DNA of 35,895 bases, taken from NCBI GenBank assembly GCA_009908725.1, contig JAAAOT010000381.1, forward strand, positions 1 to 35,895. The letters run 5' to 3'. Positions 1-35,895 of the stretch are shown here, piece by piece. The stretch is from Bacteroidota bacterium. Lineage in GTDB: Bacteria > Bacteroidota > Rhodothermia > Rhodothermales > Salinibacteraceae. The position numbers were made by a program, and so were the translations under genes. Under the pieces are notes generated by a model. The model did no database searches. It was not told the origin of the DNA and worked only from the letters and a program-made list of their open reading frames with translations. Positions within the stretch are counted from its first letter, which is position 1. Each line of letters opens with the position of its first letter.

Positions 1-64
1 AAAGGGGAACGGGGGAAAGGGGGAGAGGGAGAAAGGGGGAAAGGGGGATTTGGGATGGGGGATT
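1..64. repeat. Purine-only octamer array
   Basis: The window opens with eight consecutive 8-base words, almost all G and A. Typical units are AAGGGGGA (three times), AAAGGGGA, ACGGGGGA and GAGGGAGA, ending with the T-containing units TTTGGGAT and GGGGGATT. Bases 11-38 recur exactly at 7828-7855. The repeated G-runs could form G-quadruplex or triplex structure. The array may continue beyond the left edge of the window. No coding sense is apparent. Confidence 0.75.
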
Positions 65-184
65 TTGAATCCCGGCCCTAGAGTCGCCGCCCGTGATCGC
101 GGTGAGCGGCTTCGGGGAAGAGGAAGCCTACGTGCTCAACCTTGACTGACTTCCCCGACCTAACGCCGTCACCCCCAACACCTA

Positions 185-224
185 CCTGCACACATAAACA
201 CATACAAACATACACACAAGTACA
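185..224. repeat. CA-rich octamer array
   Basis: Five 8-base words follow each other without a gap: CCTGCACA, CATAAACA, CATACAAA, CATACACA and CAAGTACA. They share the pattern CAnnnACA or close to it. The array lies in the non-coding stretch downstream of the MltD-like gene. The units are degenerate, so the period is more convincing than the identity of any single unit. Confidence 0.5.
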
Positions 225-279
225 CCCCACCCCGAAGCGGACCGCCCGGTCTCCATCACCACACGCTCGCACATTCCCA

Positions 280-327
280 CCTTCACACCTCAACACCTCA
301 ACACCTTAACACCTCAACACCTTCAAA
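280..327. repeat. CCTCAACA octamer array next to the mltD stop codon
   Basis: Six 8-base units in perfect register: CCTTCACA, CCTCAACA twice, CCTTAACA, CCTCAACA, CCTTCAAA. The array ends 14 bases from the stop codon of the minus-strand MltD-like gene, so it would lie at the start of that transcript's 3' untranslated region. The unit CCTCAAC(A/G) also occurs in the array at 8113-8176, which links the two loci. Apart from this and the two other arrays, I see nothing gene-like in 1-341. Confidence 0.75.
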
Positions 328-341
328 CATCCAACCGTAAA

Positions 342-7817: not shown

Positions 7818-7857
7818 CGAAGGGCAGGGGGGAAAGGGGGAGAGGGAGAAAGGGGCG
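7818..7857. repeat. Purine octamer array, second copy
   Basis: Five 8-base units in register: CGAAGGGC, AGGGGGGA, AAGGGGGA, GAGGGAGA, AAGGGGCG. Bases 7828-7855 are identical to 11-38. This 28-base exact match, 7.8 kb apart, shows the two loci share an origin. The array is about 160 bases upstream of the carboxylase start. Confidence 0.7.
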
Positions 7858-7955
7858 ATCGCTGGGCTGTGATCCTGATGGTCTGCTTGTATGTCTGTTG
7901 GCCCTCGGAAGCCCACCGTTGTGGTAGGGCCTGGGTATGATTCTGCGAACAGACG

Positions 7956-7986
7956 GTGATCGGGGTTCAGGTGATCGGGGGTTCAG
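7956..7986. repeat. Tandem 15/16-base repeat
   Basis: Two adjacent copies differ by one inserted G: GTGATCGGGGTTCAG (7956-7970), then the same with five G (7971-7986). A partial third copy begins GTGTTGAC. The GGTTCAG piece also appears in the heptamer array at 26943, so this may be a short member of the same class of word repeats. Confidence 0.6.
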
Positions 7987-8112
7987 GTGTTGACGCCTTC
8001 GCGTGCTCGTGCGCGGGGAGACGGCAACAGATTTTGTGTACGAGGGTAGGGGCGATCTCCTCATCCGACACGTCCCATCCACCGCTCACGATACAGAATC
8101 CTGACGCGTCAC

Positions 8113-8176
8113 CGATCCTTCGCCTCAACGGTCCTTCGCCTCAACGAGCTAACGCATCAACGAGCCAACGATCCAA
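8113..8176. repeat. Octamer array abutting a stop codon
   Basis: Eight 8-base words in perfect register, each beginning with CG: CGATCCTT, CGCCTCAA, CGGTCCTT, CGCCTCAA, CGAGCTAA, CGCATCAA, CGAGCCAA, CGATCCAA. The array stops one base short of the stop codon of the hypothetical gene (minus strand, stop at 8178-8180), so it begins that transcript's 3' untranslated region. Read in a shifted phase, its unit CCTCAACG matches CCTCAACA of the 280-327 array. Confidence 0.8.
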
Positions 8177-20898: not shown

Positions 20899-22257
20899 AT
20901 GCCCGTTCGCGAATATCGATTTAGCGGCGTAAACACGATGGGCGAGCCCGTCCGCGGGACCGTCTTCGCGCCAAGTCGGCGTGCCGCCACGAAGCGGATC
21001 GAGGACCTGTCGGAGAAGCATCGATTTCGCACGGACGAGGTCCGGCGGCGTCGCACCTTTCTTTACAAGGTGAGAAACGCATCCGGTCGTCTTGCGCGGG
21101 GCGAGCAGAAAGCCTACAGCGCGGACGAAGTCCGAAACGCGCTCGAGCGGATGGGGCTGGAGGTGATCAAGGTCGAGCGGAAGCTGCTAGACCTGCAGCC
21201 AAAGCCGTCGAGCACCGACATCGTCATGTTCGTGCGTCTGGCGGCCAACATGCTTCGACGGCAACTGCCGTTCGACGAGATCCTGACGCTCCTGGCGGCC
21301 GACTCGTCGAGCAAGCCGCTCCGGCAGATGATGCGGGACCTGCAGACCGACCTGAAAAGCGGGATGAACGCGCAGAATGCGTTCATGAAGCACCAGCACG
21401 TGCTGGGGAAATTCACGGCCTACATGCTCGGCCTCGCCGCATCGAGCGGCAACATGGCGGACATGTTCGAGTCGACCGCCCGGTATCTCGAGCGCAAGGA
21501 CGAGTTTCAGAAAAACGTCCGCAGCGCCCTCATCACGCCGGCGATCACGCTTTTTGCGACGATAGCGGCCTTCGTCTGGTACGTGTGGTACATCATTCCG
21601 TCGTACGCGGGCCTGTTCGCAAATTACAACGTCACGCTCCCCCCGCTCACGCAGGCATCCCTCTCGTTCGCCGGCTGGATGGATGCGAACTGGCTGTGGG
21701 TATCGGGTGTGCTGGCTATTCTCGCGGTGGCCGCCGTCGCCTGGTCGCAGACCACGCGCGGGCGCTTTCTCATCCACAAGCATATGCTCCAGATCCCGAT
21801 TCTCGGGTCGCTCCTGCACAAGCTCAACCTGGAGGTCTTCTGTCGCGTGTTTGCCGTGCTCTACAGCGGGGCCGGCGAGAACGAGGAGGTGATGAACATT
21901 GCCGCCGAGGCCACCGGCAACACCTATATCGAGCACCAGATCAAGACGATTACGGTGCCGATGATGATGGCGCGAGGCACCGACCTGATCGAAGCGATGC
22001 AGGCCTCGGACGTTTTCACGCGGATGACCATCGCCCGCTTCCGCTCCGGCTCCGAGACGGGCGCCGTGCGCGAGAGTGCGGAAGAAATGGCCGACTTCTA
22101 CGAAAAGGAGACGTCGCTGAAGCTCGCGCAGACCGTGGAGACGATCAAAACCGGCGTCGCCATCGTGATCTCGCTCATGGTCGCGCTGCTGACCATCATC
22201 TCCGCGGAGTCGGCGCTTATCCAGCCGAGCAGCACGGACATCATGATGAACCGATGA
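20899..22257 (+). CDS. pilC: Type IV pilus / type II secretion inner-membrane platform protein (PilC/GspF)
   Basis: Polytopic inner-membrane platform protein that couples the assembly ATPase to pilin insertion. At 452 residues it is slightly longer than typical PilC/GspF (about 400). It has an N-terminal cytoplasmic extension (about 1-100, including SADEVRNALERMGLEVIKVER), then two GspF repeats. The first starts at VMFVRLAANMLRRQLPFDEIL; the second at HKLNLEVFCRVFAVLYSGAGENEEVM, each with the family pattern of an F-R-L-A/L-Y-S-G helix bundle. Three membrane segments are visible: ITPAITLFATIAAFVWYVWYI, WLWVSGVLAILAVAAVAW and the C-terminal GVAIVISLMVALLTII. The ATG at 20899 gives the usual opening (MPVREYRFSGVNTMGEPVRG). 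pilB starts 43 bases downstream, so co-transcription is likely. Confidence 0.95.
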   Translation: MPVREYRFSGVNTMGEPVRGTVFAPSRRAATKRIEDLSEKHRFRTDEVRRRRTFLYKVRNASGRLARGEQKAYSADEVRNALERMGLEVIKVERKLLDLQPKPSSTDIVMFVRLAANMLRRQLPFDEILTLLAADSSSKPLRQMMRDLQTDLKSGMNAQNAFMKHQHVLGKFTAYMLGLAASSGNMADMFESTARYLERKDEFQKNVRSALITPAITLFATIAAFVWYVWYIIPSYAGLFANYNVTLPPLTQASLSFAGWMDANWLWVSGVLAILAVAAVAWSQTTRGRFLIHKHMLQIPILGSLLHKLNLEVFCRVFAVLYSGAGENEEVMNIAAEATGNTYIEHQIKTITVPMMMARGTDLIEAMQASDVFTRMTIARFRSGSETGAVRESAEEMADFYEKETSLKLAQTVETIKTGVAIVISLMVALLTIISAESALIQPSSTDIMMNR

Positions 22258-22300
22258 CACTGCGTTCGACTCCCGCCTTTGCCCGACCGTTTCCGCCGAC

Positions 22301-24274
22301 ATGGATGCACCCAAGTACCGTCTGAACACGATCCTTGACGTCGCAAAGGCGAACGGGGATGCGACCGAGGTCGAACCGGCCGCCGACCCGGCCATGGTTT
22401 CTGCCGACGCGTCAACCGCTCGGGGCGCCACCGAGACCGAATCGCCCGGAGACCGGACCCGGCTACCCGACGGAGCCCTCAGAGACCGAGTCGTGATGCG
22501 CCTTGTGTCGGACGGCGCGATCAGTGTCCTGCATGCGCGTGAGGCGGTCGACCTCTGGGAGCGGCAGCAGGAGACTGAGATGTTGTGGCGGGTTCTCGCC
22601 CGACACCCGCGCGTGGACCGGGAGGCGGTGTTCGCAGAAGCGGCGTCGACGTACGCATTCGCCGCCGAGCCCGTCGGCACCGGCGACGATATCGACATCG
22701 ACTTCGTCCGCCATATCGTCGAAAGCCTGGACGGCGACCACCAGGACCGGATGCTCGCCTTTCGCCTCCTGCCCGTCCGGTACGAGGCCGATTCGCGCCG
22801 GGGCATCCGAAAGCTGATCTTCGCCACGCATGACCCGATGAAGCCGGAGGTCTTTCACCTCCTGCAGGACATCGGCATCCAGCACTTCGAGCTTCGATAC
22901 GCGGCGGAGACCGACGTGGCGACGCTGCTGGATGAGCTGTTCCCCCGTCGCAACGAGTACCTCGAACGGATTCAGGCGGATGAAGACGCGCAGGCCTTCG
23001 ACCTCGGCGCGAGCTACCAGGAACGTGGATCGCGCCTTGTCGACGAGGATGAGCTGGAAGCTGAGATCAACCGCTCCGCCCTCATCAACCTGTTTGAGGC
23101 CACGCTCGTCGAAGGCGTTCGCGGCGGCGCGTCCGACATCCACATCTTCCCCAACGAGCGGCGCCAGACGGAATTCCACATGCGCGTGGACGGTGTCCTG
23201 ACGCTGTGGCACACGCAGGACAAAGTCCATCCCGAGTCCATGCTTGCCGTCGTCAAGGACCGGTGCATGAACGTCGACCGGTTCGACCGCGACGCCGCCC
23301 AGGACGGGTATATCCAGCGCACGGTCGACGACAAGCTGATCCGGTTCCGCGTGTCGATTCTCCCAATTGCGACCTCGGACCGGGAGGTCAAATCCGAAAG
23401 CATCGTCATCCGGATTCTGGATGACTCGAAAGTGTTCACGGATCTGTCCGCGATCAACCTCCACCCGGTCGCCCTCAAGCGATTCGAGCGGGCGATCAGC
23501 CAACCCCATGGCATGGTCATCATGACCGGACCGACGGGGTCGGGGAAAAGCACGACGCTGGCGGCAGCGCTCCACGGCGTCATCAGCCCGCAGCGCAACG
23601 TGCTGACGATCGAAGACCCGGTCGAGTACATCATCCGCGGGGCGCGACAGATCAAACTCGGGCCCCGGCTCAACCTTGAGGGGGCGCTGCGATCTATCCT
23701 GCGCCACGACCCGGATGTGGTGATGGTCGGGGAGATGCGTGATCGCCCCACAGCCGAACTCGCGATCAAGCTCGCTAACACGGGTCACCTTACATTTTCA
23801 ACCCTTCACACGAACGACGCCCCAAGTGCGGTCAGCCGCCTGTTCAAGATGGGCATCGAGCCGTTTCTGATCGGATACGCCATCAACCTCGTCGTCGCGC
23901 AGCGACTTCTCCGGAAGCTGTGCCCGACGTGCCGGGAGGTGGACCCGGATCCCGACCCGGTGCTGCTACAAGAACTCGGCTTCTCAGATGATGAGATCGA
24001 TTCCATCACCCTTTACCGGCCCGGCGATGAGTCGTCCTGCCGCACGTGCAACGGCCAGGGCTACAAAGGTCGCCAGGCCATTGCCGAAGCCTTGTATTTC
24101 AGCCGGGAAATCCGCCACCGGGTCGTCGACGCCGGCGACTCGATCGATGAAGACGGCATTCGCAGCCTCGCCATCCGGCAGGGCATGATGACGCTGCAGG
24201 CCAGTGCCCGCGAGGTGGTGAAGCGCGGCGAAACCTCCGTCGATGAAATGATTCGCGTCGTCGCCAGCGAATGA
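22301..24274 (+). CDS. pilB: Assembly ATPase (PilB/GspE)
   Basis: Cytoplasmic hexameric ATPase that drives subunit addition. The 657-residue length fits PilB with an N-terminal MshEN-like region (about 60-230, VDLWERQQETEMLWRVL, then IRKLIFATHDPMKPEVFHLL). The catalytic part is complete: SDIHIFPNE, Walker A GPTGSGKSTT (K416), Asp box LTIEDPVEY, Walker B DPDVVMVGEMRD and His box TFSTLHTNDAPSAVSRL. The four-Cys zinc-binding motif of assembly ATPases is present at C541, C544, C580 and C583 (LCPTC, then SCRTC), which separates it from PilT. The ATG at 22301 is the first start after pilC. Codon use matches the neighbours. Confidence 0.96.
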   Translation: MDAPKYRLNTILDVAKANGDATEVEPAADPAMVSADASTARGATETESPGDRTRLPDGALRDRVVMRLVSDGAISVLHAREAVDLWERQQETEMLWRVLARHPRVDREAVFAEAASTYAFAAEPVGTGDDIDIDFVRHIVESLDGDHQDRMLAFRLLPVRYEADSRRGIRKLIFATHDPMKPEVFHLLQDIGIQHFELRYAAETDVATLLDELFPRRNEYLERIQADEDAQAFDLGASYQERGSRLVDEDELEAEINRSALINLFEATLVEGVRGGASDIHIFPNERRQTEFHMRVDGVLTLWHTQDKVHPESMLAVVKDRCMNVDRFDRDAAQDGYIQRTVDDKLIRFRVSILPIATSDREVKSESIVIRILDDSKVFTDLSAINLHPVALKRFERAISQPHGMVIMTGPTGSGKSTTLAAALHGVISPQRNVLTIEDPVEYIIRGARQIKLGPRLNLEGALRSILRHDPDVVMVGEMRDRPTAELAIKLANTGHLTFSTLHTNDAPSAVSRLFKMGIEPFLIGYAINLVVAQRLLRKLCPTCREVDPDPDPVLLQELGFSDDEIDSITLYRPGDESSCRTCNGQGYKGRQAIAEALYFSREIRHRVVDAGDSIDEDGIRSLAIRQGMMTLQASAREVVKRGETSVDEMIRVVASE

Positions 24275-24305
24275 CCAGCGACCGTCGCGCTTCCCCGAAG
24301 CCGCC

Positions 24306-24920
24306 ATGCACCTTCTGTACTCCCTCATCGCCCTGATGCTCGTCGGCGTGCTCGCGCTGAACTCGATGCGCACGGCCACGCATGCGGAGCAGCGGATTCT
24401 CAGTAATGAGATCATGACGCAGGTCACCGGCGTGGCCGACGAGGTCTTCGATCACGCCGCCGGCTACTGGTTCGACCACGCGGTCGACGAGTCCCGGTCG
24501 GCCATTCAGCCCCCGATCTTCCCGCTGATCGAGGCGCATCAGACGAACCTTCTGACCACAACGAGCGACGTGCCGGGGGCTACGGTCGACGGCTGGGGCG
24601 GCTGCACCGATGCGATTTATGCGCTGGATACAAACATGGGCCAGCGTCGGCTTCAAAATACCGCGCGCCCCCTCACGTGCGACGACCTCGACGACCTCCA
24701 CGGCCTGTCGATCGAAGTGGAGCGAGACGGCCTCACGTACGACGTCACCGTCGCCGTGGAGTACGTGCTCCCGACCAACCCGACCGTCGTGTCGTCCTCT
24801 CCGACCTTCACGAAACGAGTGACGCTGACGATCACGTCGGCGGACTACGAAATCGGCGGCAGCCCGCTCGAAGTGGTGCTCTCCCGCGCATTCATGTACG
24901 ACCGTGTGACGGGCACGTGA
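24306..24920 (+). CDS. Single-pass pilin-like subunit (first minor subunit)
   Basis: No family recognised. The 204-residue product begins MHLLYSLIALMLVGVLALNSMRTATHAEQRI: an N-terminal membrane helix, with no leader, continuing into an amphipathic helix, as in minor pilins. The remaining part is globular, beta-rich and periplasmic, with two Cys (GWGGCTDAIY, LTCDDLDD) that may form a disulfide. There is no prepilin peptidase motif. It lies 31 bases after pilB and 59 bases ahead of another protein of the same architecture, which suggests GspH/I/J/K-like pseudopilins that cap or prime the filament. Position and topology support this; sequence similarity does not. Confidence 0.72.
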   Translation: MHLLYSLIALMLVGVLALNSMRTATHAEQRILSNEIMTQVTGVADEVFDHAAGYWFDHAVDESRSAIQPPIFPLIEAHQTNLLTTTSDVPGATVDGWGGCTDAIYALDTNMGQRRLQNTARPLTCDDLDDLHGLSIEVERDGLTYDVTVAVEYVLPTNPTVVSSSPTFTKRVTLTITSADYEIGGSPLEVVLSRAFMYDRVTGT

Positions 24921-24979
24921 CCCATGCCGACTGCTCCGCCCAAACCGGCAGGTTGAGCCGGACTTTCTGAGACTGCGAG

Positions 24980-25603
24980 ATGAGCATCTGGATTGAATAC
25001 ATATCGGCGTTTGCCGTCGCCTCCTTCGTCGCGGTGACCCTGTTCGTCGTTCAGTTTCGCTCGCAGGAGGTGTCGATCGACAGCACGCAGTACCGGTCCG
25101 TCAAAACGGCGGCTGTGGACGTTGTCGAGATGATCGAGAGCGACATGAAAAACCTCGGCGGCCAGCATCCCTCGAACTCGGCCCTCACGACGTTCGGCCT
25201 TCCCGGCGGCGCTGCATTCGGGATCCAGAGCGCGCCGGACACGACGAATGTGCCGCACACCTTTCGCTTCTACGCGCCACGACAGCGAGGCGCGGCGCCG
25301 AGTGTCATCCGGTACGAATGGGCCGTTGAAGACAGCATCCAGCTATCGGATGGCACGCAGCGTCCCCTGTACACCTTCCGGCGATTCGTGGACGGGAGCG
25401 TCGACGGCGAAAGCAACGGCGTGCTGACGAAACTCTCGTTCAACCTGTTGGAGTCTGCAGGCAATGCGATCACAAACCTCGACCAGACTGAGCAGGTCTT
25501 TGTCGAAGTCCGCGCCATCTCCCCGCTCGGCCGCAGCCGGACGGTCGGGGAGACGCGCTGGTCCAGCACGTTTCGACCGCATGCCCTGACCATTCACCGG
25601 TAG
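24980..25603 (+). CDS. Single-pass pilin-like subunit (second minor subunit, GspJ/PilW-like)
   Basis: A 207-residue protein beginning MSIWIEYISAFAVASFVAVTLFVVQF, an N-terminal membrane helix carrying a Glu at position 6 but no Gly cleavage site. It is followed by a helix (YRSVKTAAVDVVEMIESDMKNLGG) and then a beta-rich domain (TFRFYAPRQRG, IRYEWAVEDSI, PLYTFRRFVDG). That order, including 'IRYEW ... LYTFRR', resembles GspJ/PilW-type minor pilins, in which a strand reporting bond or variable type follows the helix; the similarity is loose. It lies between two other single-pass subunits. Its place in the operon suggests a role at the filament tip. Confidence 0.7.
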   Translation: MSIWIEYISAFAVASFVAVTLFVVQFRSQEVSIDSTQYRSVKTAAVDVVEMIESDMKNLGGQHPSNSALTTFGLPGGAAFGIQSAPDTTNVPHTFRFYAPRQRGAAPSVIRYEWAVEDSIQLSDGTQRPLYTFRRFVDGSVDGESNGVLTKLSFNLLESAGNAITNLDQTEQVFVEVRAISPLGRSRTVGETRWSSTFRPHALTIHR

Positions 25604-25636
25604 GCGCGCTCCCGCCGCCATCACCTTTCCCTCGTT

Positions 25637-26941
25637 ATGGAACGGATCGTTCTCTTCCTGGTGCTCGGCGCCTTCCTCACGGGTTCGATGTACACGTTGA
25701 ACGTGGAGTCGAATACGCGCGACGCGGACGATGCGCTCCACCGATACCAGTATAAGGAACTGGCTCGGGACGCGGCCCTCGCCGGGCTCCGTCGCACCGT
25801 CGCGAGCCTCGCCCGGGATGCCCATACCCCCTGGAACGGGCATGATACGTACGATCTCGGCCGGACGCCTTACGGGGACGGAGCGTACGAGGTCAACGTC
25901 GAAACTGTTGCCGGCCAGGCCGACACCGTGGACGTTTACGTGCTCGGCATGTACGGGCCGGATTCTATCCGCATCGACGCCCGGTACGAGCGCGCCCAGG
26001 ACCTCGGCGGCGTCCCACCCGCCTTCCGATCCGTAATTCTGACGGACGATCTCCTTCAGGTTCGTGGCGACATCACGGTCACGACCCTGGACCCCGGGCT
26101 GAACGCCAACATCCACACCAACGGCGAGCTACGGACGAACGGCAACGCCTTCATCGTCGAGGGATACGGCACGTATGCCGACGCGAGCAACACCAGCCAG
26201 CCCGACAATTTTCAGCCGCGGATCGACTACAACGGCCCGGAAAGTAACGTCCTACAAGTCCCGGAGATCACGCTGCCGGACGCTCGCCTCGATAGCAGCG
26301 ACGCGGATGTTCACTGGGTGGACACGGACAACTGGCCAGACCTCGTACTCGAACCGGACCCGGGCTACCCGACCGCCGTCCTCAACATCCAAAACGAGAT
26401 CTACGGCCCCGGCGGCTTCTGCACTGACGGTCGGATCCCGCCGAGCGTGTGCTGGCCCGACGGCAATCCGGTCCTCGGGGACACAAAGGCCTTCGTGTGG
26501 TGGGTCGCGGGCAACATCGACATGACCAACGTGCAGGTGCAGGGCAACGTCGTCCTGTACGCCGACGGCTACCGAACGATCAACGGGACTCCCGACGCGG
26601 CCCCCGGCGCCGGTCTGCTGCTCGAGAACGACATCACCGGCGGCCTGACCGCGAATGACCAGACCCAGCTCATGCTGCGGACGGCCGGCGAGGTTCATGT
26701 TCGCGGAAACGACCGGATCACCGGAAGCATCTGGGCCAACGCCGACGTGACGTTCTACGGCACACCGGACTTCTACGGCAACGTCCTCGCCCCGGGCGCA
26801 CGATTTGAAGGCCGCGGCGACTTCACGCTGACGTACGCCGCCCCCTCAAAACTGATCACCACCCCCGGCTACCGCAACGACGACCCGATCGGCCCGGTGC
26901 TCATCGGCTACGCGGAATGGGACGAAGAGCATCTGCCTTAA
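25637..26941 (+). CDS. Large single-pass subunit with repetitive beta region (PilX/GspK-like position)
   Basis: A 434-residue protein beginning MERIVLFLVLGAFLTGSMYTLNVES, again an N-terminal helix without a leader. A helical stem follows (YQYKELARDAALAGLRRTVASLA), as in PilX/GspK-type minor pilins. The rest has repeated short beta turns (NANIHTNGELRTNGNAFIV, DITGGL, GSIWANADVTFYGTPDFYGNV), which suggests a beta-solenoid, with one Cys pair (GGFCTDG, SVCWPDG). Its size and position as the third pilin-like gene suit a tip subunit or adhesin. The stop codon is followed after two bases by a long heptamer array and a gap, so the first transcription unit of the cluster may end here. Confidence 0.7.
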   Translation: MERIVLFLVLGAFLTGSMYTLNVESNTRDADDALHRYQYKELARDAALAGLRRTVASLARDAHTPWNGHDTYDLGRTPYGDGAYEVNVETVAGQADTVDVYVLGMYGPDSIRIDARYERAQDLGGVPPAFRSVILTDDLLQVRGDITVTTLDPGLNANIHTNGELRTNGNAFIVEGYGTYADASNTSQPDNFQPRIDYNGPESNVLQVPEITLPDARLDSSDADVHWVDTDNWPDLVLEPDPGYPTAVLNIQNEIYGPGGFCTDGRIPPSVCWPDGNPVLGDTKAFVWWVAGNIDMTNVQVQGNVVLYADGYRTINGTPDAAPGAGLLLENDITGGLTANDQTQLMLRTAGEVHVRGNDRITGSIWANADVTFYGTPDFYGNVLAPGARFEGRGDFTLTYAAPSKLITTPGYRNDDPIGPVLIGYAEWDEEHLP

Positions 26942-26942
26942 A

Positions 26943-27104
26943 GTTCAAGGTTCAGAGTTCAAGGTTCAGAGTTCAAGGTTCAGAGTTCCGGGTTCTGGGT
27001 TCCGGGTTCTGGGTTTTGGGTTTTTGAAGTCGTCATTCCCAACTCCCCATTCGCAATTCGTCATTCGCAGTTCCCCATTCGCAATTCCCCATTCGTCATT
27101 CCGC
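26943..27104. repeat. Heptamer array (22 units of 7 bases in two blocks)
   Basis: Block one (26943-27026) has twelve adjacent heptamers: GTTCAAG/GTTCAGA alternating three times, GTTCCGG/GTTCTGG alternating twice, then GTTTTGG and GTTTTTG. Eight bases later, block two (27035-27104) has ten heptamers, mostly ATTCGCA, ATTCCCC and ATTCGTC, with ATTCCCA, ACTCCCC, GTTCCCC and ATTCCGC. All but a few fit RTTCNNN. The array starts two bases after the stop codon of the preceding gene. The layout resembles the heptanucleotide STRR arrays of filamentous cyanobacteria (known class, similarity in layout only). Confidence 0.85.
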
Positions 27105-27216
27105 TTCGATCTGACCTCAGCCGGTGGATGAGTTCACTGCGCCGGAAGCTACATTCATGTGGCCATTTCGTTTACACGGATGCGAGGGTTCGGCGCATCG
27201 ATCTTTCGTTTCGGGA

Positions 27217-27251
27217 TTGACGCCTTGAGCCCCGGGGATACGATACTTTCG
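27217..27251 (+). promoter_or_regulatory. Candidate promoter for the second pilus transcription unit
   Basis: TTGACG (27217-27222), a 16-base spacer and TACGAT (27239-27244) fit a sigma-70 promoter; TACTTTCG (27244-27251) also fits the Bacteroidota -7 box TAnnTTTG at 7 of 8 bases. A transcript from here would start near 27252. This supports the downstream GTG at 27309 as the start of the PilT-like gene. Confidence 0.4.
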
Positions 27252-27308
27252 ACACGTCCTGTCCAACCATGGGGGCGTTCTCCTGACTCTTCTTTTCGCA
27301 CCCTCGCT

Positions 27309-28595
27309 GTGAATGCTTCCCCGCCGCCCGTTTCGAGTAGTGAGACGGCGCCGCCCACCCATGCAGGATCGACCGCGATTCACGTTCCGGATTCGTTCGT
27401 CGACCTGGCGCGGTCAGCCCCGGAGGATTTGTCCGGGCTCCGGCGGATCCGCTGGCTCGGCCGTCGCCTTGACCGGCTGCCGGACACGGATCGGCGACAG
27501 GCGAAGGACGACCTCGACGCGCTCGCGGCACACATGGTGACACTGCACGCATCCGACCTCGATCTCGGTGGTCCGGCGGCGGCGCATCAGGTCTGGTTTC
27601 GCGTCGACGGACGCAAACAGCCGTATCCGGACATAGGCACGTTCGACCTTGCGGCCACGGACGTCTGGCTCCTCAGCATTCTGGCCGACCACCAGCGCGA
27701 CACATTGCTGCACCGCTTCAGCGTCGACTTCGGCCATAGCCTTGCGGTTCATCCCGACGAACCCGATCGCCGGTTTCGCGCCACGGTCTACTTCGACAAC
27801 CAGCACGTGGCTCTCGGCATGCGGCTGCTGGCGTGGAAGCCCCGTCCGCTGCGATCGCTCGGCTTTCACCCGCTCGTCGAGCGCGGCTTTCTGTTCCGGT
27901 ACGTGCGCGACGGGCTGACGCTTTTCACCGGCGTTACCGGCTCCGGAAAAAGCACCACGCTGGACGCAATCGTGGACGCCAACAATGAGGACGCGGCGGC
28001 GCATATCCTGATCGTCGCACAGCCGCTGGAGTTTATTCATACATCGAAAAAGTGCATCATCCGCCACCGCGAGGTAGGCACAGATGTCCAGAGCTTCGTC
28101 GACGGCATGGTGCAGGGGCTTCGGCAAGACCCGGACATCGTCATCGTCGGGGAAATGCGTGACTCGGAAACGATCTCCACCGCGATGGAAATGGCAGACA
28201 CCGGGCACAAGGTGTTCTCGACACTTCACACCGGGAGCGCGATCGAAACCATCGACCGGATCGTCGCCGAATATCCGTCCGAGGAACAGCACCGCGTCCG
28301 GAACCGCCTCGCCGACGTGTTGCGCTGCGTCGTTTCGCAAAAACTGCTTCCCTCAATCGGCGGCGGCCGGACGCTCGCCAAGGAGGTTCTCTGGATGACC
28401 CCAGCCTCTCGCGCGGCCATCAAAAACGGCAACGTGCCCGAAATTTACCAGATGATGTGGCAGGGGCACGACCAGGGGATGATCACGCTTGAGCAGAGCC
28501 TCGCGCGCCTCGTCCGGCGCGGGGAGGTGGCCACGGACACCGCCCTGAGCTACGCCAACAACAAACGCCGCCTCCTCCACATGCTGAGGTCTTGA
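27309..28595 (+). CDS. pilT: PilT-like ATPase with degenerate Asp box
   Basis: Secretion ATPase of the PilT type, which in pili powers retraction. The GTG at 27309 (residues from MNASPPPVSSS, 428 aa) is preferred because a candidate promoter lies inside the longer frame that opens with a GTG at 27159. The N-terminal domain has TLHASDLDLGG (the ASDLHL motif with His changed to Asp) and WFRVDG. Catalytic motifs are Walker A GVTGSGKSTT (K214), Walker B DPDIVIVGEMRD and His box FSTLHTGSAIETIDRI. Two PilT hallmarks are altered: the Asp box IEDPIEF reads VAQPLEF, and AIRNLIRE reads ASRAAIKN. No Cys motif is present. It heads the second block of the cluster, ahead of the alignment-complex genes, and may be a divergent or regulatory motor. 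Confidence 0.9.
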   Translation: MNASPPPVSSSETAPPTHAGSTAIHVPDSFVDLARSAPEDLSGLRRIRWLGRRLDRLPDTDRRQAKDDLDALAAHMVTLHASDLDLGGPAAAHQVWFRVDGRKQPYPDIGTFDLAATDVWLLSILADHQRDTLLHRFSVDFGHSLAVHPDEPDRRFRATVYFDNQHVALGMRLLAWKPRPLRSLGFHPLVERGFLFRYVRDGLTLFTGVTGSGKSTTLDAIVDANNEDAAAHILIVAQPLEFIHTSKKCIIRHREVGTDVQSFVDGMVQGLRQDPDIVIVGEMRDSETISTAMEMADTGHKVFSTLHTGSAIETIDRIVAEYPSEEQHRVRNRLADVLRCVVSQKLLPSIGGGRTLAKEVLWMTPASRAAIKNGNVPEIYQMMWQGHDQGMITLEQSLARLVRRGEVATDTALSYANNKRRLLHMLRS

Positions 28596-28635
28596 CGCCT
28601 CGCTTCCGCTTCTTCCGCCCGAACTGGTATTCTCG

Positions 28636-30456
28636 ATGTCTGCACCCGACCCCTCGCCCGTCCTCGGCGTATCGCTCACGCCGCATACCATTGAAGCGGT
28701 GCTGCTCCGCGCGGTGGAGGGGCACCCCGTCATCGTCCGCCGGTTCGCACGGCCCCGACCGCGCGTCGGTGAGCCGTCGCTTGCCAGCGATTACGCATCG
28801 AGCCTACCCGGACTGAAAGGCACCGAGGACGCCGACTTCACCCTTCAGGTCGGTGCGTCGGCGGTATCGGACGACCTGCCCTTCGACGCGTCGCTCGACC
28901 CACTCGGCACGGACGGGCGTGAAACGATCTCCGGCGACGGAGCGGGAGCAAGCAACGGAGGCCCCCGCCTCTTCGCCGCCCCCCTCCGGGAGATTCTGAC
29001 CGAATGCAGGGAGATCGGCTGCCCGAACCCGGACGTCGTCTTCGTCGCCGGACCGCCGGACGTCGCCCACGTCGAACTCGCAGGCAACCTCGCTGACACC
29101 ACGTCCAACGGGTGGCGGGAGACGGTCAAGCGGTACCTGCAGTTCGGGCGCTCCACGCAGGGAGGGCCTCGAGTGGCGGCCCTACGCTCCGTCTACAAGG
29201 GCGGCTTTGACGCCCGCCGCGTGCGCTTCCTCCCGATGACACCGGCCGCCAGCGGCACCGCCCGTCACCTCGCGCTCGTTCCCACGCATCGCGACAGCGT
29301 CACCCCGACGGTACAGACCGGCTTCGGGCCGAACCGCGACGTAACCCTATCGGCGCGCCGCATGGACGCGGAAGTGGCGATCCACGTCGACGTCGTGCGT
29401 CGCTACCTCGTCCCCGAGCCCGACCAAACCACCGCCGTCATCCGCGTCGGTGCGGAGGACACGCTCATCCTCTTCATGCGCGGCCCGGCCCTTCGACATG
29501 TCGAACACCCGCGGTCGGTCACCTCCTACGACGCGCCGGACACCATCGCGTCGCGCGTGCTGCTTTACCAGGACGAACAGCAAATCGAACGGATCGACGC
29601 CGTCGTGCTCATCGGCGGGCCCCGTGACGAGCGGCTCGTCACCAGCTTCCGGCAATACTACCCGGACGCCGCGATCGGACGCCTGCACGAACTCCTGCTG
29701 AAGGAGAACGTCGGCGCTGCCGAGGACGTGCTGCATACCCTGACACCGGAGTCCGGCCCCGCACTGGCTGCTGCGCTTCGCGTCCTCGATGAGCCGGTCG
29801 ACGACGACCTCAACCTGTTCGACCGATCCGTCCAGCAGACCGCGCGCCCCCTTCCCTTCTTCGCGTGGCACACGGTCGCCATGCTCCTCGTGATCCTGGC
29901 CTCGACGCTTTTCTTTGTCTGGCGTTACGTAGAACAGCAAACCGAAATCGCGCAGCTTCAAACCCGAATTCAGTCCAACCCGGTCGCTCTGCCCGACATT
30001 TCACCGGCTGATCTCCAGCAGCGCGTAGATAGCCTCAATGCCGTGCACGCACAGTACGCCCGATCCCTCGAGGTGCTCGACTCCCTGCTACTGGGCAGCA
30101 CGGAATGGAGCACGACCATCGCCCGTACCGCGCGGCAGACGGATGCTATTGAAGGTATCTGGTTCGAGGAATGGTCGCTGTCGCCCGATCAGATCACGCT
30201 TCGTGGCAACGCGATGGATCGCAACCGCGTCGCGACGCTGGCGCGCAACCTCGACGGCGTCGTGCATGAGGTGATGTACGCCGACATCGACGATGCACGG
30301 GTCTACCCATTCGAAATCACGATTCCGCGCGACATCTCGATGCCGGACGCCGCGCTGGCCCTCCGAGAACGAAATCTCGACGCCGAGGCGGCACGCTCGA
30401 TCACCGGGGAGGCCATCCTCGACGCGGACCTCGAAACCGTTCCGGCCGCGCCCTGA
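28636..30456 (+). CDS. PilM-PilN fusion (GspL-like) alignment-complex protein
   Basis: A 606-residue protein in which the cytoplasmic actin-like PilM part and the membrane PilN part appear to be one chain, as in GspL of type II secretion. Residues about 1-400 read as an actin-like (ASKHA) fold: PVLGVSLTPHTIEAVLLR at the start, VDVVRRYLVPE and TTAVIRVGAEDTLILFMRG in the middle, and IDAVVLIGGPRDE near its end. One membrane helix follows (about 412-433, HTVAMLLVILASTLFFVWRYV), then a coiled coil and a ferredoxin-like PilN domain (TARQTDAIEGIWFEEWSLS, ITLRGNAMDRNRVATLARNL). An acidic tail closes the chain. The assignment rests on pattern, not on high identity. The ATG at 28636 follows pilT by 40 bases, and the PilO-like gene follows by 29. 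Confidence 0.82.
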   Translation: MSAPDPSPVLGVSLTPHTIEAVLLRAVEGHPVIVRRFARPRPRVGEPSLASDYASSLPGLKGTEDADFTLQVGASAVSDDLPFDASLDPLGTDGRETISGDGAGASNGGPRLFAAPLREILTECREIGCPNPDVVFVAGPPDVAHVELAGNLADTTSNGWRETVKRYLQFGRSTQGGPRVAALRSVYKGGFDARRVRFLPMTPAASGTARHLALVPTHRDSVTPTVQTGFGPNRDVTLSARRMDAEVAIHVDVVRRYLVPEPDQTTAVIRVGAEDTLILFMRGPALRHVEHPRSVTSYDAPDTIASRVLLYQDEQQIERIDAVVLIGGPRDERLVTSFRQYYPDAAIGRLHELLLKENVGAAEDVLHTLTPESGPALAAALRVLDEPVDDDLNLFDRSVQQTARPLPFFAWHTVAMLLVILASTLFFVWRYVEQQTEIAQLQTRIQSNPVALPDISPADLQQRVDSLNAVHAQYARSLEVLDSLLLGSTEWSTTIARTARQTDAIEGIWFEEWSLSPDQITLRGNAMDRNRVATLARNLDGVVHEVMYADIDDARVYPFEITIPRDISMPDAALALRERNLDAEAARSITGEAILDADLETVPAAP

Positions 30457-30485
30457 CGCGCCTGTCGCACCGACCCTGGGATCCT

Positions 30486-31442
30486 ATGAAAACGCACCTC
30501 AACACGCTTCTTCTCCTCGTCGTCGCCCTCGCCGTCTCCGGGGCGGGCTACTACGTAACGGAGATCCGCCAGCCCGCCACGCTACAGCACCTTCGCGACG
30601 TGGATCGCGTCGCCCGCCTGCAGCATGCACAGGTCGCACAGCTACTGGCCGAAGCCGAGCAATCCTCCGATCGGGCCGATGCCACGGTACGGCGCTGGAA
30701 CTCGCGGTACCGCTACATCCCGGCCTCTCTGTCTACATCGGACGTGATCGAGTACCTGGAAGAGCTCACGCCCTCCGGGTTCGAAGCATTCGACGTTCGC
30801 CTCGACGGCATCGAGGCGTCGCCTGATGTCGATCACTATTCGTTCACGGTCGACGGCACCGGGTCCTACGCTGCGATCTATGACTTCATCTGGCAGATCG
30901 AGAACCGGCCGGACTTCTATCGCATCCGCGACCTGGAGATGGGCCGGATCACCGTCGTCGATGGAAAAAGTGGGACGCGCGGCCAGGAGATGGTCCGCTT
31001 TTCCCTGCTGCTCGACGTGTTCTTCGGCGGACTGGACGGGCTCAGCGCAGATCGCGACCTGCTTGCGACGGCGCCCGAAGACGTGCTGCCGGAGCGCGAC
31101 GTCCCGCACAATTCGTTCTACCCGCTTGTCCGCGAACGCGTCCGCGCCAGCGGCCCGGGCACAGCCGGACAGGTTGACATCCGCCACGCCAGCCTGGTCT
31201 CCATCGCCGGGTCGCGCGCGATTTTTCAGGACGGCAATACACAGTTCATCGTGTACGAAGGCTCCTCCGTCGCCTACGGCACAATCGTTCGCATCGACCC
31301 GCTGAACGTCGTGGTACGCGCCAGCCTGACGATTGACGGCAAGACGGAGATCGTGGACATCCAGATGGAAAGCACCCGTCCGACGTACCGGCAGGCGGAG
31401 GGGAACGCTCAGCTCGTACCGGTCGAAACCGGCCAACCCTGA
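30486..31442 (+). CDS. PilO-PilP fusion, alignment-complex protein
   Basis: A 318-residue single-pass protein. An N-terminal membrane helix (about 7-25, NTLLLLVVALAVSGAGYYV) and a coiled coil (LRDVDRVARLQHAQVAQLL) lead to a PilO-type ferredoxin-like domain (about 90-190, YSFTVDGTGSYAAIYDFIWQ, FYRIRDLEMG). The C-terminal part (about 230-305) has the short beta pattern of PilP or the GspC homology region: HASLVSIAGSRAIFQDGNTQFIVYEGSSVAYGTIVRI, then VVVRASLTIDGKTEIVDIQM. PilP normally links the inner-membrane PilN/O pair to the secretin, and here it appears to be built into PilO. The gene directly precedes the secretin gene, which fits that role. The domain calls are by eye. Confidence 0.78.
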   Translation: MKTHLNTLLLLVVALAVSGAGYYVTEIRQPATLQHLRDVDRVARLQHAQVAQLLAEAEQSSDRADATVRRWNSRYRYIPASLSTSDVIEYLEELTPSGFEAFDVRLDGIEASPDVDHYSFTVDGTGSYAAIYDFIWQIENRPDFYRIRDLEMGRITVVDGKSGTRGQEMVRFSLLLDVFFGGLDGLSADRDLLATAPEDVLPERDVPHNSFYPLVRERVRASGPGTAGQVDIRHASLVSIAGSRAIFQDGNTQFIVYEGSSVAYGTIVRIDPLNVVVRASLTIDGKTEIVDIQMESTRPTYRQAEGNAQLVPVETGQP

Positions 31443-31534
31443 CGCGCACTGCTGTCGCCGTCCGCTTCCTTCCCCTGCTGAACCGGGGCCGATGCGGGCG
31501 GCCGTCTCCCTACCGCTCGCTATCAATCGCCCCT

Positions 31535-32920
31535 ATGATCTCTTCGTACGCCCTGCGTCTTCCCCGGCTGTCGTTCGCCGGCCGGTCTGCGGTCGTCGCC
31601 GCCGTGCTCGCCGCTCTGCTATGGTCCACCGTGGCCCCGGCGATGGCGCAGGAGCCCAGCCGGCGCCAGCTCCGCACCTACATTCCTCCCGAACAGCTCG
31701 TCTCGTTCCTCCCAACGACGCCCTTCGACCAGTTCGTCGAGTTTCTGAACCCGCTGTTCGTGAATGTCACGGGCAAGCAGGTGATCGACCCGGAGTCACG
31801 GTCCGAACCCATCGGCGTATCCGTCACCCGAATGCAATTCTTCGATGCCTTCGAGCTGGTTCTGGAGGCAAAAGGGCTCAGCTTCCGCGAGACGGATCGC
31901 TACTTTATCGTGCAGGAAGGGATGCCGATGGAAGACCCCGCCATGGTCCAGCAACAGGGTCCGATGCCGTCTGCTCCCGCCGTCGACCCGCTGCCAGCGA
32001 CGCTGGAAACACCGGAGGTCGTCATCAGCGCGCTTCTTTTCGAAGTCAACCTGTCCCGTGCCCGAGAACTGGGGCTGGACTGGAGCGTCTTCATCGGGCA
32101 GCAGACCGGCCAGCAGGGCGATCAGCAGGGCGACGATCAGGGCCCCCGGTTCAAACTCCGGCCGAAGAACCTCGGCGGAGCCATCGGCGACTTCTTCCGC
32201 GAGGATGAGCTCAGTACACCGGATGAAATCGACTTCGGCGACCTCGCCCGGTTCTTCCGTGCGCTCGAGGACGACGGAATCGGCAAGACCCTCGCCCAGC
32301 CCTCCGTCGCCGTCCAGAGCCGGGAGCAGGGGCGCATCCAGATCGGCTCCGACATTCCGATTCAGGTGCGCGACTTTGCCGGCAACACCATCACGCAGTT
32401 CATCTCGACCGGGATTATCGTCGACGTCACGCCCACGCTGATCTCGGAGGCCCTTGCCGACACCGCGGGTTCCCCCGAAATCGCCTTTGTACACCTCGAC
32501 GTGAACGTGGAACGGTCGAGCGGGCGCCCGTTCGGGGCGAGCATCGCCGTCGACCGAAACACCGCGGACACCCAGGTGCTGCTGCTCGACGGGGAGCAAA
32601 CGGTCATCGGCGGGCTCTACTCGTCAGACATCGCCACATCCCGGCGCGGCATCCCGCTCCTGAAGGATCTTCCGCCCTGGGTCTTCGGCCTGCGCTATGT
32701 GTTCGGGCGCGAACAGAAAACGATCGCCCGCCGCGAACTCGTGATCGTGCTGCAGGCAGAAGTTCTCGACCCCATCCCCGAGCGCGCACGGAAGTCACTG
32801 CCGGATCAGTTGCTTGAGCAGCGACGAAAAGAGGTTCAGGAGCGCATTCGACGGTTCGACGACGAGGTCAACCGGCGGCTCGGCCCGGATGCGGTGCTTC
32901 CGAGCAAGGTCGACGACTGA
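31535..32920 (+). CDS. Secretin (GspD/PilQ family), compact form
   Basis: Outer-membrane channel through which the pilus or secreted protein leaves. The ATG at 31535 opens a signal peptide (about 1-39, ending APAMAQ). At 461 residues it is shorter than usual PilQ/GspD. There is one small N-domain (about 45-130, FDQFVEFLNPLFVNVTGKQ, VTRMQFFDAFELVLEAKGL) rather than several, then the secretin core (about 175-430): EVVISALLFEVNLSRARELGLDW, IGKTLAQPSVAVQSREQGRIQIGSDIP, GIIVDVTPTLIS, LLLDGEQTVIGGLYSSD, IPLLKDLPPW, and RRELVIVLQAEVL. A charged, coiled C-terminal tail (QRRKEVQERIRRFDDEVNRR) is unusual. A hairpin (32927-32932 with 32943-32948) follows the stop codon. No pilotin is visible. Confidence 0.92.
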   Translation: MISSYALRLPRLSFAGRSAVVAAVLAALLWSTVAPAMAQEPSRRQLRTYIPPEQLVSFLPTTPFDQFVEFLNPLFVNVTGKQVIDPESRSEPIGVSVTRMQFFDAFELVLEAKGLSFRETDRYFIVQEGMPMEDPAMVQQQGPMPSAPAVDPLPATLETPEVVISALLFEVNLSRARELGLDWSVFIGQQTGQQGDQQGDDQGPRFKLRPKNLGGAIGDFFREDELSTPDEIDFGDLARFFRALEDDGIGKTLAQPSVAVQSREQGRIQIGSDIPIQVRDFAGNTITQFISTGIIVDVTPTLISEALADTAGSPEIAFVHLDVNVERSSGRPFGASIAVDRNTADTQVLLLDGEQTVIGGLYSSDIATSRRGIPLLKDLPPWVFGLRYVFGREQKTIARRELVIVLQAEVLDPIPERARKSLPDQLLEQRRKEVQERIRRFDDEVNRRLGPDAVLPSKVDD

Positions 32921-33051
32921 CCCGTGGACAGGTGCTCGTCGGCCTGTCTGCCTGCCGGTCGGGTTGATCATCACACCGTCGCACACCCGCCGAACCGAGC
33001 ACCGCCCGGCCGTCCCGATGATTCTTGCTACGCCAAAAACAGGCCCTGCCG

Positions 33052-33939
33052 ATGACGCTCGTTCCGTCGCTGACCCGGGCGCGACCGCTGCGTACGGTTC
33101 GACCCGCATCCGGCGCCCTGATTCTGGCGGTGGTCGTGATTCATTCTGCACTGACGGCGCTGTTTTTCGCTCCGGATTTCCAGATGTTCGTCAGCCGACC
33201 GATGACCGAGGCGACGGCCGGCGTGGCGACGCACGTGCTCGTTACCAACGCGCTGGAGTTCGCGGTCCTGATTGCTGGATGCATGGTCGTCGTCGGGGGA
33301 CTGCGCCTCGGCGACCTCGGCCTGCACCGACGGGGCATCGCCGTCGCCGTTCTCGCCACGCTCGTGATCTGGGGACTGACGCAACTGGTGATGCACGCGC
33401 TGTCCGTCGTCACGAACACGCCCGCGATCTTAAACCCGGTCTGGATGTACCCGATGGCATCGGAAGCCATTGGACGACCGCTACCCGGGCTATTTATCGC
33501 AGCGGGTGTGGAGGAGGTGATGTATCGTGGCTTTCTTCTTCCCCAACTATATTACCATGCTCGCGGATGGGGACTTCGAGGTTCTGGGCGCCGCCTTTTC
33601 GTCGCCCTTTGCATCTCGCAGTTGCTGTTCGGCGTCAACCACATCCCGGCGGGCATCGCTGCAGAGCTTTCCGCCGGCGAGATCGCTTCCTACGTGACGA
33701 TGGCGGCTCTGGTGGGCGTTTTCTTCTCGGTACTCTACCTTCGCACTGCAAACCTGTGGCTGGTCATCGGCCTCCACGCGGTCCTCAATCAACCTCTCTC
33801 TTTCTACCTCAGCCCCCTCGATCCCTCACTCGTCGTATTGATTCTGGGCCTGCTGCTGACCCTCGCGATTCCGTTTCTTCGCCGGGTCCTGCCGCCGTCC
33901 ACCCCGTCGTCCCCCCCGGCGTCGCCGCCGACCGGGTGA
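33052..33939 (+). CDS. CPBP (Abi/CAAX-type) intramembrane metalloprotease
   Basis: A polytopic membrane protein with the three CPBP glutamate/histidine motifs: EEVMYRGFLLPQL (E154, E155, R159), FGVNH (H197) and HAVLN (H242, N246), so the catalytic site looks intact. The ATG at 33052 (MTLVPSLTRARP) is preferred over an in-frame TTG at 33025. The 295-residue chain has about eight hydrophobic segments. The product is a probable protease of the Rce1-like superfamily, whose bacterial members act in membrane proteolysis, bacteriocin immunity or unknown functions. It lies between the secretin and the PKD/SPOR gene and starts 132 bases past the secretin, so it may belong to the same operon. A role in maturing pilus-like subunits is possible only as speculation. 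Confidence 0.9.
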   Translation: MTLVPSLTRARPLRTVRPASGALILAVVVIHSALTALFFAPDFQMFVSRPMTEATAGVATHVLVTNALEFAVLIAGCMVVVGGLRLGDLGLHRRGIAVAVLATLVIWGLTQLVMHALSVVTNTPAILNPVWMYPMASEAIGRPLPGLFIAAGVEEVMYRGFLLPQLYYHARGWGLRGSGRRLFVALCISQLLFGVNHIPAGIAAELSAGEIASYVTMAALVGVFFSVLYLRTANLWLVIGLHAVLNQPLSFYLSPLDPSLVVLILGLLLTLAIPFLRRVLPPSTPSSPPASPPTG

Positions 33940-33966
33940 CGCCCGCTGCACCATGCTGCTGACGTA

Positions 33967-35537
33967 ATGACCCGACTGTCCCTCCCGATCCTCCTGCTTG
34001 TCCTGGCCGGGCTCGCCCTGCCGGCGGCCCGCGCGCAGGATGCCGAACCCGTGCAGGTCCTCGAACTGCACGGGCCGCGCTCTCTGTTTGCCGGCGCCGT
34101 AGCGAACTATCGGGCACGGGTGTCGGACGAGTCGACGCGACCGATCGGGTTTCTGTGGCACTTCGGTGACGGGATCGCGTCCGAGGGAAGCCTTGTCGCC
34201 CACCGGTATGCCTTGCCCGGCACCTACACGGTGAGGGTCATCGCTTACAACACGGCCGGGCGCGACACGATGTCCACGACGGTTCGGGTCTCGCCCGCTC
34301 CGGATGTCACCGCCATCCCCGATCCGCCGAGCGAGGTGCAATCCACGCAGGGTGCCTCAACCGCCGAACGCACCGCGCCCGCAGCCGAACTGCCATCCCC
34401 GAGCATCTCTCGTCGGGACGTGCGGAAATCCCTTTTCAGCCGCCACCCCATCGTTCCCGCATCGGATGGCTACACCTGGGTGCTGGCGTCCGACCTGTGG
34501 AGCGAGCGCCTTCACCGAAAGCGCCTGAAGTACCGGCTGCAGGGATTGCGCGTCGAAGTTATGGCAGACACGACGGGAAGCGGCAGCCCCGTCTACCGCC
34601 TCATCGCCGGTCACTTCAAGACCATCGGACAGGCGTTGATCGCCCGGTCCATGCTCAAGGTCGACGAGTCGAACCTCCAGCTCCAAGCGTTCTCGCCCGA
34701 CGGCATTCAACTCGCGATGGCGGCCTTTCCGGACGCCCTCCGGCAGCTGGATCCCGCCGATCGAACGTGGCTCGACGCCCTCCCCGAGCCGACCGTTGCC
34801 GACATTCAGCCGCCCTCCCCTGACGCACACGAGGCCCCCGAAGGGATCGCCACGACCGGGCCCGCCCCCACGCCATCGGCATCGCCCAACATGAGTCGAC
34901 GCATCCCGGAGATACCTTCCCCGGGCTTGCCCTCCTGGGTCTGGTTCGTTGCCGGCCTTGCCGTCGCATCGGCGACAGGCATCGTATCGCTCATTCTCTA
35001 CGGCCGACGATCGGCCGGCCGACCGCTTCCGCGACCGCCTCTACCAAAAAAAGCGCTGCCGCCGATCGGTCTCCGGACCGGGCGGCGGCGGCGTCCCAGT
35101 CCAGCAACGGCAGCACACCTGCTCCGAAACCGGCGCCCACCCCGCCCGTCGCCGACGACGAGGCCGGAGGCGGCGACACGGAACCGTCAGACGCCGACGC
35201 TCCAGCACCGGCGGCGCCAGAAGCGCCCACTCCAGACCCGGCGGCTCCGGCAGCCGCCGACCACCTCACCAGGGATCACGAACCGCTGTCCCCGCCGTCG
35301 GACGTCAACATGGCCTGGCCCGACGATCAGGAGAGTGAAGCTCCCCTTCCGATCACCGCCTTCCACGTCGTCGTGCCGGAGGATGTGGAGGTCACGCCAC
35401 CCGAACCGTGGCCGCATCCATCCACCTGGAATGTGCCGGGACGCGGCTGGGACGATCTCAACGACATGGCATCCTCCGACCCGCCGGCCGAATCGCCCAC
35501 ACGGGAACCGAGGCGCGATGATGAGGTCGTTTCCTGA
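33967..35537 (+). CDS. PKD and SPOR-domain membrane protein with -1 frame change
   Basis: Predicted envelope protein. A signal peptide (1-23, ending AARAQ) is followed by a PKD domain (about 30-115, GFLWHFGDGIASEGS, HRYALPGTYTVRV), a low-complexity linker, and a SPOR-like domain (about 165-250, YTWVLASDLWSERLHRKRLK, YRLIAGHFKTIGQALIAR) that in other proteins binds denuded peptidoglycan. A membrane helix follows (about 321-346). The zero frame runs on to 35763 as an Arg/Pro-rich tail, which also overlaps the next gene. In the -1 frame an acidic, Ala/Pro-rich halophile-type tail (ending EPRRDDEVVS) runs from about 35052 to the TGA at 35535-35537. The biological product is therefore probably the -1 fusion, 523 residues if the shift occurs at the A7 run. 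The cause may be programmed frameshifting, an indel or a sequence error. Confidence 0.75.
35046..35086 (+). promoter_or_regulatory. Slippery heptamer and stem-loop, candidate -1 frameshift signal
   Basis: The zero frame reads CCA AAA AAA GCG, so the A run (35046-35052) is the heptamer A-AAA-AAA in the correct register. Five bases later (GCGCT), GCCGCC (35058-35063) pairs with GGCGGC (35081-35086), and CGGTC (35067-35071) pairs with GACCG (35076-35080) around a TCCG tetraloop with C-G closure. GAT (35064-35066) is a bulge. Slippage by -1 leads directly into the acidic open frame. GC-rich triplet repeats nearby raise the chance of accidental pairing. Confidence 0.5.
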
Positions 35538-35729
35538 CATTGATCTCCAGGGCGAACGCGCCGGACAACTGCACCCGCGGGTTGCGAATGGCGGTCATTG
35601 CGTCCATTTTATTCGTACCAAGACGACACCGCGCGCCGCCTACCGCATGCGGTCGTCCCTCCGATCCATCGCTCCTTCCGCACCCCGTCCGCCGGTCTCA
35701 ACTCTTTTTCCCTATCTCGACCCGGAACC

Positions 35730-35895
35730 ATGGCAAAACGTACGTCCGATCCGTTTTCGCTGAGCGATGAAGAGCTCCTCGAGGAAATCATCGACCTGCA
35801 CCGGCAGGGCCACGATGCGGAAGCCGTCACGCGGGCTCTGGAAGAGCAATACGGTGCTTCCCGCGTCGATCGATTCGATCTCGTCAGCGTGATCC
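35730..35895 (+). CDS. Hypothetical protein, N-terminal fragment cut by the window edge
   Basis: No family recognised. The ATG at 35730 opens a frame of 55 complete codons that continues past the right edge. It begins MAKRTSDPFSLSDEELLEEI and is Glu/Asp-rich and probably helical (DLHRQGHDAEAVTRALEEQYG), with a composition typical of this organism. It lies 192 bases past the end of the -1 frame product and starts inside the zero-frame extension of that gene, which is another reason to doubt that extension. No ribosome binding site is visible. Function is unknown. Confidence 0.7.
   Translation, partial: MAKRTSDPFSLSDEELLEEIIDLHRQGHDAEAVTRALEEQYGASRVDRFDLVSVI

Follow-up and report, generated by a model that had tools for sequence, protein, structure and literature searches.

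A run of short tandem repeats of about 160 bases lies directly after the stop codon of a gene in a 35,895-nucleotide stretch of DNA (below, the window) from a draft genome of the Salinibacteraceae, and poses the question of what kind of element it is and how it came to be there. The upstream stop codon, TAA, occupies positions 26939 to 26941, and the first GTTC starts at 26943 (Table 1). From there a first block (26943 to 27026) comprises 12 heptamers, 10 of which begin with GTTC in one unbroken run, and a second block (27035 to 27104) comprises 10 heptamers, 9 of them of the form RTTC. Along the first block the units drift from GTTCAAG and GTTCAGA through GTTCCGG and GTTCTGG to GTTTTGG; those of the second are ATTCGCA, ATTCCCC, and ATTCGTC, which on the opposite strand include GGGGAAT and TGCGAAT. 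A sequence-only reading of the locus had described a strict 7-base register that survives this drift. The register does hold within each block, but not across both, the second being displaced by one base relative to the first (27035 - 26943 = 92 = 13 × 7 + 1). Phased RTTC runs reach 10 units here, as against a maximum of 3 both in 200 first-order Markov windows of equal length and in 5,000 simulations with the array's own composition. Chance is thereby ruled out as the origin of the array, as the sequence-only reading had implied, and the shuffled-sequence test that it had proposed produced nothing comparable.

Table 1. Features of the array locus and of a second arrangement of the same kind in the window
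Feature	Position	Strand	Basis or content
Second arrangement of the same kind	4..334		G-rich period-8 GGGGAAAG (4-48); C-rich period-8 ACACATAC (190-225) and CACCTCAA (262-334)
Upstream gene, DUF7305-like (weak match)	25637..26941	+	ORF call, homology
G-rich arm	26940..27024	+	Period 7; lag-7 score 38.9 (motif-free), TRF, 10-unit GTTC run
Short spacer between arms	27027..27034		Sequence
C-rich arm	27035..27104	+	Period 7; lag-7 score 16.6 for 27037-27101; unit list
Downstream gene, PilT/GspE-like T2SSE ATPase	27159..28595	+	ORF call, homology

The surrounding region (20899 to 35763) is a type II secretion/type IV pilus-like locus with T2SSF, two T2SSE ATPases, the DUF7305-like protein, PilN, a secretin, and PKD proteins. 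The true start of the ATPase gene next to the array probably lies downstream of the GTG used for the call, since homology to the sister species begins at residue 65. Homologues of the second T2SSE gene in two genomes (L029 in G019 and L030 in G018) carry one in-frame stop codon each.

The array is not a local single-site oddity, a notion excluded by matches throughout the genome and in its relatives. The window genome (a 4.05-Mb draft in 394 contigs, 84% complete, with 2.4% contamination) contains 122 matches to four phased GTTCN3 units and 108 to four phased ATTCN3 units, with none for the reversed controls; in all, it has well over 100 arrays, with periods of 7 or 8 only. The sister species (99% complete, and the only other species of the genus compared) has 169 five-unit phased RTTC matches, with none in the control. 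A motif-free tandem scan of 800 kb of the latter genome recovered 40 period-7 and 17 period-8 arrays, with 0 to 3 for each of the other periods tested from 4 to 15. Unit families include GTTCAGG, ATTTCGC, and GGGGATT at period 7 and GTGTGGAA and AACGTCCC at period 8. RTTCNNN, put forward as the unit by the sequence-only reading, fits the window array but is one of several unit families in the window genome, where period-8 arrays occur too. An exact 25-base GTTCAGG/GTTCAAG array is found at 111 places in GTDB genomes, spanning Desulfobacterales, Geobacter, Acidobacteria, Bacteroidetes, Ignavibacteria, Chlorobiaceae, Planctomycetota, Verrucomicrobia, and one ANME-1 archaeon. Within the window, a stretch between two genes (7822 to 8176) is probably a third G-rich/C-rich site: GGGGGAAA forms a short G-rich array of period 8 there, GGTGATCGGGGGTTCA occurs twice, and CGCCTCAACGATCCTT makes up a C-rich array. 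A genome of the same order (G032, family f9; e.g., C35:11112-11143) has about 20 dispersed copies of a heptamer string in fixed order, ATTCAGCGTTCCTTGTTCGGTGTTCGATATTC. Elsewhere the units are shuffled, and this string has the look of a copied element, not of a product of slippage.

The arrays share a polarity and a placement. Among neighboring arrays less than 800 bp apart in the genus data, a G-rich array precedes a C-rich one in 45 cases and follows it in 1 (29 and 0 in a first subset of these data); at the GTTCAGG loci of other phyla, the corresponding counts are 31 and 3. The window pair, whose lag-7 segments are 12 bp apart, obeys the same G-to-C order. Arrays are intergenic in 154 cases, as against 14 inside ORFs, and coding sequence is accordingly rejected as their explanation. 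Taking the G-rich strand as the reference, 62 of 100 G-rich arrays start at -20 to +15 bp of an upstream stop codon, as against 10.4 expected if they were spread uniformly over the same gaps; among C-rich arrays the count is 1 of 79 (expected, 7.4). The gene calls rest on a simple ORF and GC3 rule, and individual distances may therefore be off, yet the contrast is large. The window array very probably belongs to this stop-anchored G-to-C family.

Repeats of this class have been described before. The G-rich heptamers GGGAATC of Xanthomonas and GGGGAYT of Nostoc were reported by Rehm et al. 2015 (PMC4692102), who found that about 90% of the GGGAATC repeats of Xanthomonas are intergenic, that they lie on the coding strand close to the stop codon or across it, and that they form 70 to 75 convergent pairs. 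The window array resembles these in its 7-bp period with at least four units, in its intergenic position 0 to 50 bp past a stop codon on the coding strand, and in its membership in a convergent G-to-C pair. It differs in that its units are GTTCNNN and ATTCNNN rather than GGGAATC or GGGGAYT (the other strand of the C-rich arm has GGGGAAT only in part), and in that here many units are present per genome, period 8 occurs too, and the two arms are of different unit families. STRR and TAACTGA heptamers are known from Cyanobacteria, Beggiatoaceae, and Bacteroidetes (MacGregor 2015, PMC4679880), likewise as dispersed intergenic arrays across distant phyla; TAACTGA, unlike the present repeats with their drifting units at stop codons, is nearly invariant and lies mostly just upstream of start codons. 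The kinship with cyanobacterial STRR heptamers proposed by the sequence-only reading is supported. What that reading missed is that the array is one of well over 100 in its genome, is a G-rich/C-rich pair, and belongs to a class already known from both papers, though not described in this lineage or with these units.

That reading, which named STRR heptamers as the nearest known class, also missed that the same architecture flanks a family of protein-coding genes. ORFs beside the cross-phylum arrays include TIGR02436, “four helix bundle protein,” to which family (PF05635) the protein encoded by the intervening sequences (IVS) of 23S rRNA belongs (S23/IVP). These intervening sequences are elements with arms of complementary sequence, and their gene was once known mainly from ribosomal RNA. 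In the order to which the window belongs, 8 of 27 IVP genes have a G-rich array upstream and a C-rich one downstream within 400 bp and none has the reverse, compared with 7 bracketed genes among 1,144 control genes from the same genomes (Fisher p = 1.5e-10). The G-up/C-down bracket recurs at 14 of 22 nonredundant plasmid IVP loci, from Nostoc, Calothrix, Anabaena, other Cyanobacteria, Gemmatirosa, Riemerella, and Azospirillum, and at 14 of 23 IVP loci in IMG/VR, with no reversed case in either set and counts of 0 to 1 for control periods; no IVP gene was found in phage genomes. The arm units differ from locus to locus (GGGAAAA, GGGAGTA, GTGTAGG, GGGAACA, GGTGACA, GTTCAAG, and GGGCAGGA), but the two arms of a locus carry the same unit: their periods are equal in 37 of 37 bracketed loci, and the pairing energy of cognate arms is -50.6 kcal/mol versus -19.4 kcal/mol for noncognate arms. 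Arms are typically 30 to 31 bp, or about four units. One bracketed locus, from Azospirillum (L337), sits inside a 23S rRNA gene, implying that a classical IVS can have this bracketed-arm anatomy. Moreover, in 11 of the 14 plasmid elements, annotations and array positions put no more than 0 to 7 bp between a stop codon and the start of the G-rich arm, and this anchoring, common to IVP elements and gene-less arrays, is the strongest point for a common nature of the two.

The plasmid loci also document how the arms are acquired. Empty-site records aligned clearly for three of four plasmid IVP insertions. A 428-bp insert in Trichormus plasmid C, missing from Nostoc linckia with a flank identity of 99%, includes both arms and duplicates GTAAT, which holds the stop codon TAA; the other two inserts (479 and 494 bp) have TACTAAG and TTAG at both ends. 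No arrays are present at the aligned empty sites, and the arms hence arrive together with the IVP gene. On a Nostoc edaphicum plasmid (L325), an IVP element in antisense orientation separates nrdB from nrdA, its insertion point coinciding with the nrdA stop codon; the empty site is in Calothrix NIES-4105.

At the level of whole genomes, PF05635 is present in 23 of 24 genomes with arrays of five phased RTTC units versus 29 of 90 without them (p = 8e-9, for 114 genomes of the order and by a test that ignores shared ancestry). Motif-free array density is zero in the stretches of two IVP-free genomes and 25 to 50 per Mb in IVP-bearing ones. Against a link speak the many genomes that combine IVP genes with few RTTC arrays, although one of them (G012) has arrays of other units, and the more than tenfold excess of arrays over IVP genes.

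Comparison with the sister species bears on how long gene-less arrays persist. Eleven array sites of the window genome had both flanks mapped together in its stretches, and at 8 of these an array is present there as well, differing in unit number and sequence; at one such site, 4 versus about 9 GTTC units stand around an identical 22-base spacer. The remaining three, the window site among them, have no clear array in the sister species, where a terminator-like hairpin stands in place of the array at the window site and at one other. Retention at 8 of 11 sites fits long persistence as well as mobility. The search of relatives that the sequence-only reading had suggested found such arrays in related genomes but none at the window site, from which an array is absent in all 15 homologous loci of the family examined. 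A clean empty site was found for none of the gene-less pairs.

Several accounts can be set against this evidence. The arrays could be neutral and microsatellite-like: seeded by chance in intergenic DNA, they would have grown by replication slippage and eroded by substitution without the help of any mobile element, and IVP elements would merely be prone to similar arrays. The different unit numbers around a conserved spacer at the orthologous site, the drift of units along the array, and the unmatched arms of gene-less pairs all agree with such a history, which nonetheless predicts neither the restriction to periods 7 and 8, nor a G-to-C polarity of 45 to 1, nor stop-codon anchoring of the G-rich strand only, nor the bracketing of IVP genes by arms that arrive with them; we regard it as rather unlikely. 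Selection on a host element at the 3′ end, i.e., a transcription terminator, an mRNA 3′ stabilizer, or a G-quadruplex after the stop codon, was considered by Rehm et al. 2015 and would account for the G-rich sequence lying on the sense strand past the stop codon, for persistence at most orthologous sites, and for the hairpins at two of the sites where the sister species lacks an array; for Xac, a higher frequency of transcript starts or stops in G4-forming repeats has been reported (PMC4692102). Against this, the window array folds no better than shuffled sequences (z = 0.58), many units cannot make a three-layer G-quadruplex, the account leaves the C-rich arms of tandem gene pairs unexplained, and terminator-like hairpins are not significantly rarer beside arrays (8/37 versus 165/517), so that replacement of terminators by arrays is not supported. 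An RNA stem is rejected by the same fold value, and no Rfam match was found in the window at gathering thresholds, in both of which respects the array is unlike an intrinsic terminator or a known structured RNA. This second account is, in our estimate, unlikely.

A third possibility is that a reverse transcriptase, acting like DRT10 in a telomerase-like fashion, added templated repeats to DNA ends, which were then joined to give head-to-head G-to-C arrays. The polarity is that of fused telomeres, and bacterial reverse transcriptases that make tandem-repeat DNA exist (PMC12632851). Unlike the DRT10-type system with its tandem-repeat cDNA product, neither the window genome nor the 99% complete sister genome has an RVT_1 gene (E<=1e-8), RVT_1 is unassociated with arrays across the 114 genomes (4/24 versus 26/90, p = 0.30), and stop-codon anchoring is not explained. 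A resident enzyme of this kind is not supported by these profile results, and we consider the whole scenario highly improbable.

We favor, with roughly even confidence, the reading that the window array belongs, as a member without a gene, to a dispersed family of paired short-tandem-repeat elements that spans phyla and is related to IVP elements. In each element a G-rich arm with a period of 7 or 8 bp precedes a C-rich arm, and the G-rich strand is anchored at a stop codon. The gene-less arrays may be relatives or derivatives of IVP elements that arose by insertion at stop codons, after which slippage would have changed the number of units and mutation their sequence. The IVP protein perhaps acts on them in trans, comparable to RAYT with REPINs, where likewise one coding element with matching ends is accompanied by many gene-less copies at the 3′ ends of genes; the ends here are tandem heptamers and the protein a four-helix bundle, as opposed to the palindromes and Y1 transposase of REPIN/RAYT. 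As for the window array, it is probably a footprint that serves the host gene little or not at all.

With the S23/23S-IVP element the window array shares periodic arms of 7/8 bp, G-rich upstream and C-rich downstream, at a stop codon; unlike that element, it lies outside rRNA, its arms (GTTC versus ATTC) are not complementary, and no PF05635 gene is present in the window, where our own IVP HMM matches no ORF. The unmatched arms of gene-less pairs, the window's included, are the main counterevidence to kinship with IVP elements: cognate arms of such pairs pair no better than random ones (rank 0.44 to 0.55), and, in the genus, 30 of 45 pairs combine a period-7 with a period-8 arm. The search for decayed IVP genes between the arms of gene-less pairs recovered none, yielding only the known intact gene. 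For the PF05635 protein we know of no recombinase activity and no catalytic motif, nor, to our knowledge, has a function been established for it in three decades; among the relatives that sequence comparison recovered, 2GSC (XCC0516) alone has a solved structure. It is because of the unmatched arms, the lack of IVP remnants, and the lack of a known catalytic motif that we infer trans-mobilization rather than assert it and hold the explanation as a whole no more firmly than stated above.

The new part of these findings is the link between IVP four-helix-bundle genes and 7/8-bp arrays. S23/IVP genes go unmentioned in Rehm et al. 2015, and a full-text search of the open-license literature, outside which most subscription journals lie, returned no paper joining IVP/S23 genes to heptamer arrays, which does not by itself prove novelty. 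More tentatively, and with less confidence than we place in the reading of the window array, we suggest that S23/IVP genes could be part of a widespread family of small mobile elements that have inverted arrays of 7- or 8-bp units as their ends and insert at stop codons, that the abundant heptamer repeats of many bacterial genomes, including the window array, could be their gene-less relatives, and that the 23S rRNA IVS could be a special case. The heptamer repeats of Xanthomonas, Nostoc, Beggiatoaceae, and other bacteria have so far lacked an origin, for which the link to IVP suggests a source. The polarity, the 7/8-bp period, the placement at stop codons, and the co-arriving arms tie together two open questions, the origin of the heptamers and the function of IVP, and both become testable. 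In plasmid CRISPR loci (L330, L332, and L336), we observed IVP genes with heptamer arms between cas6 and cas4 and between cas10 and cmr3, the gene of L336 having an 8-bp arm on one side; Zhang et al. 2013 (PMC3936711) had noted, in cas loci, 18 IVP genes in the vicinity of cas4 and cas6. The link to arrays offers a reason for the presence of IVP genes inside CRISPR-cas and other operons.
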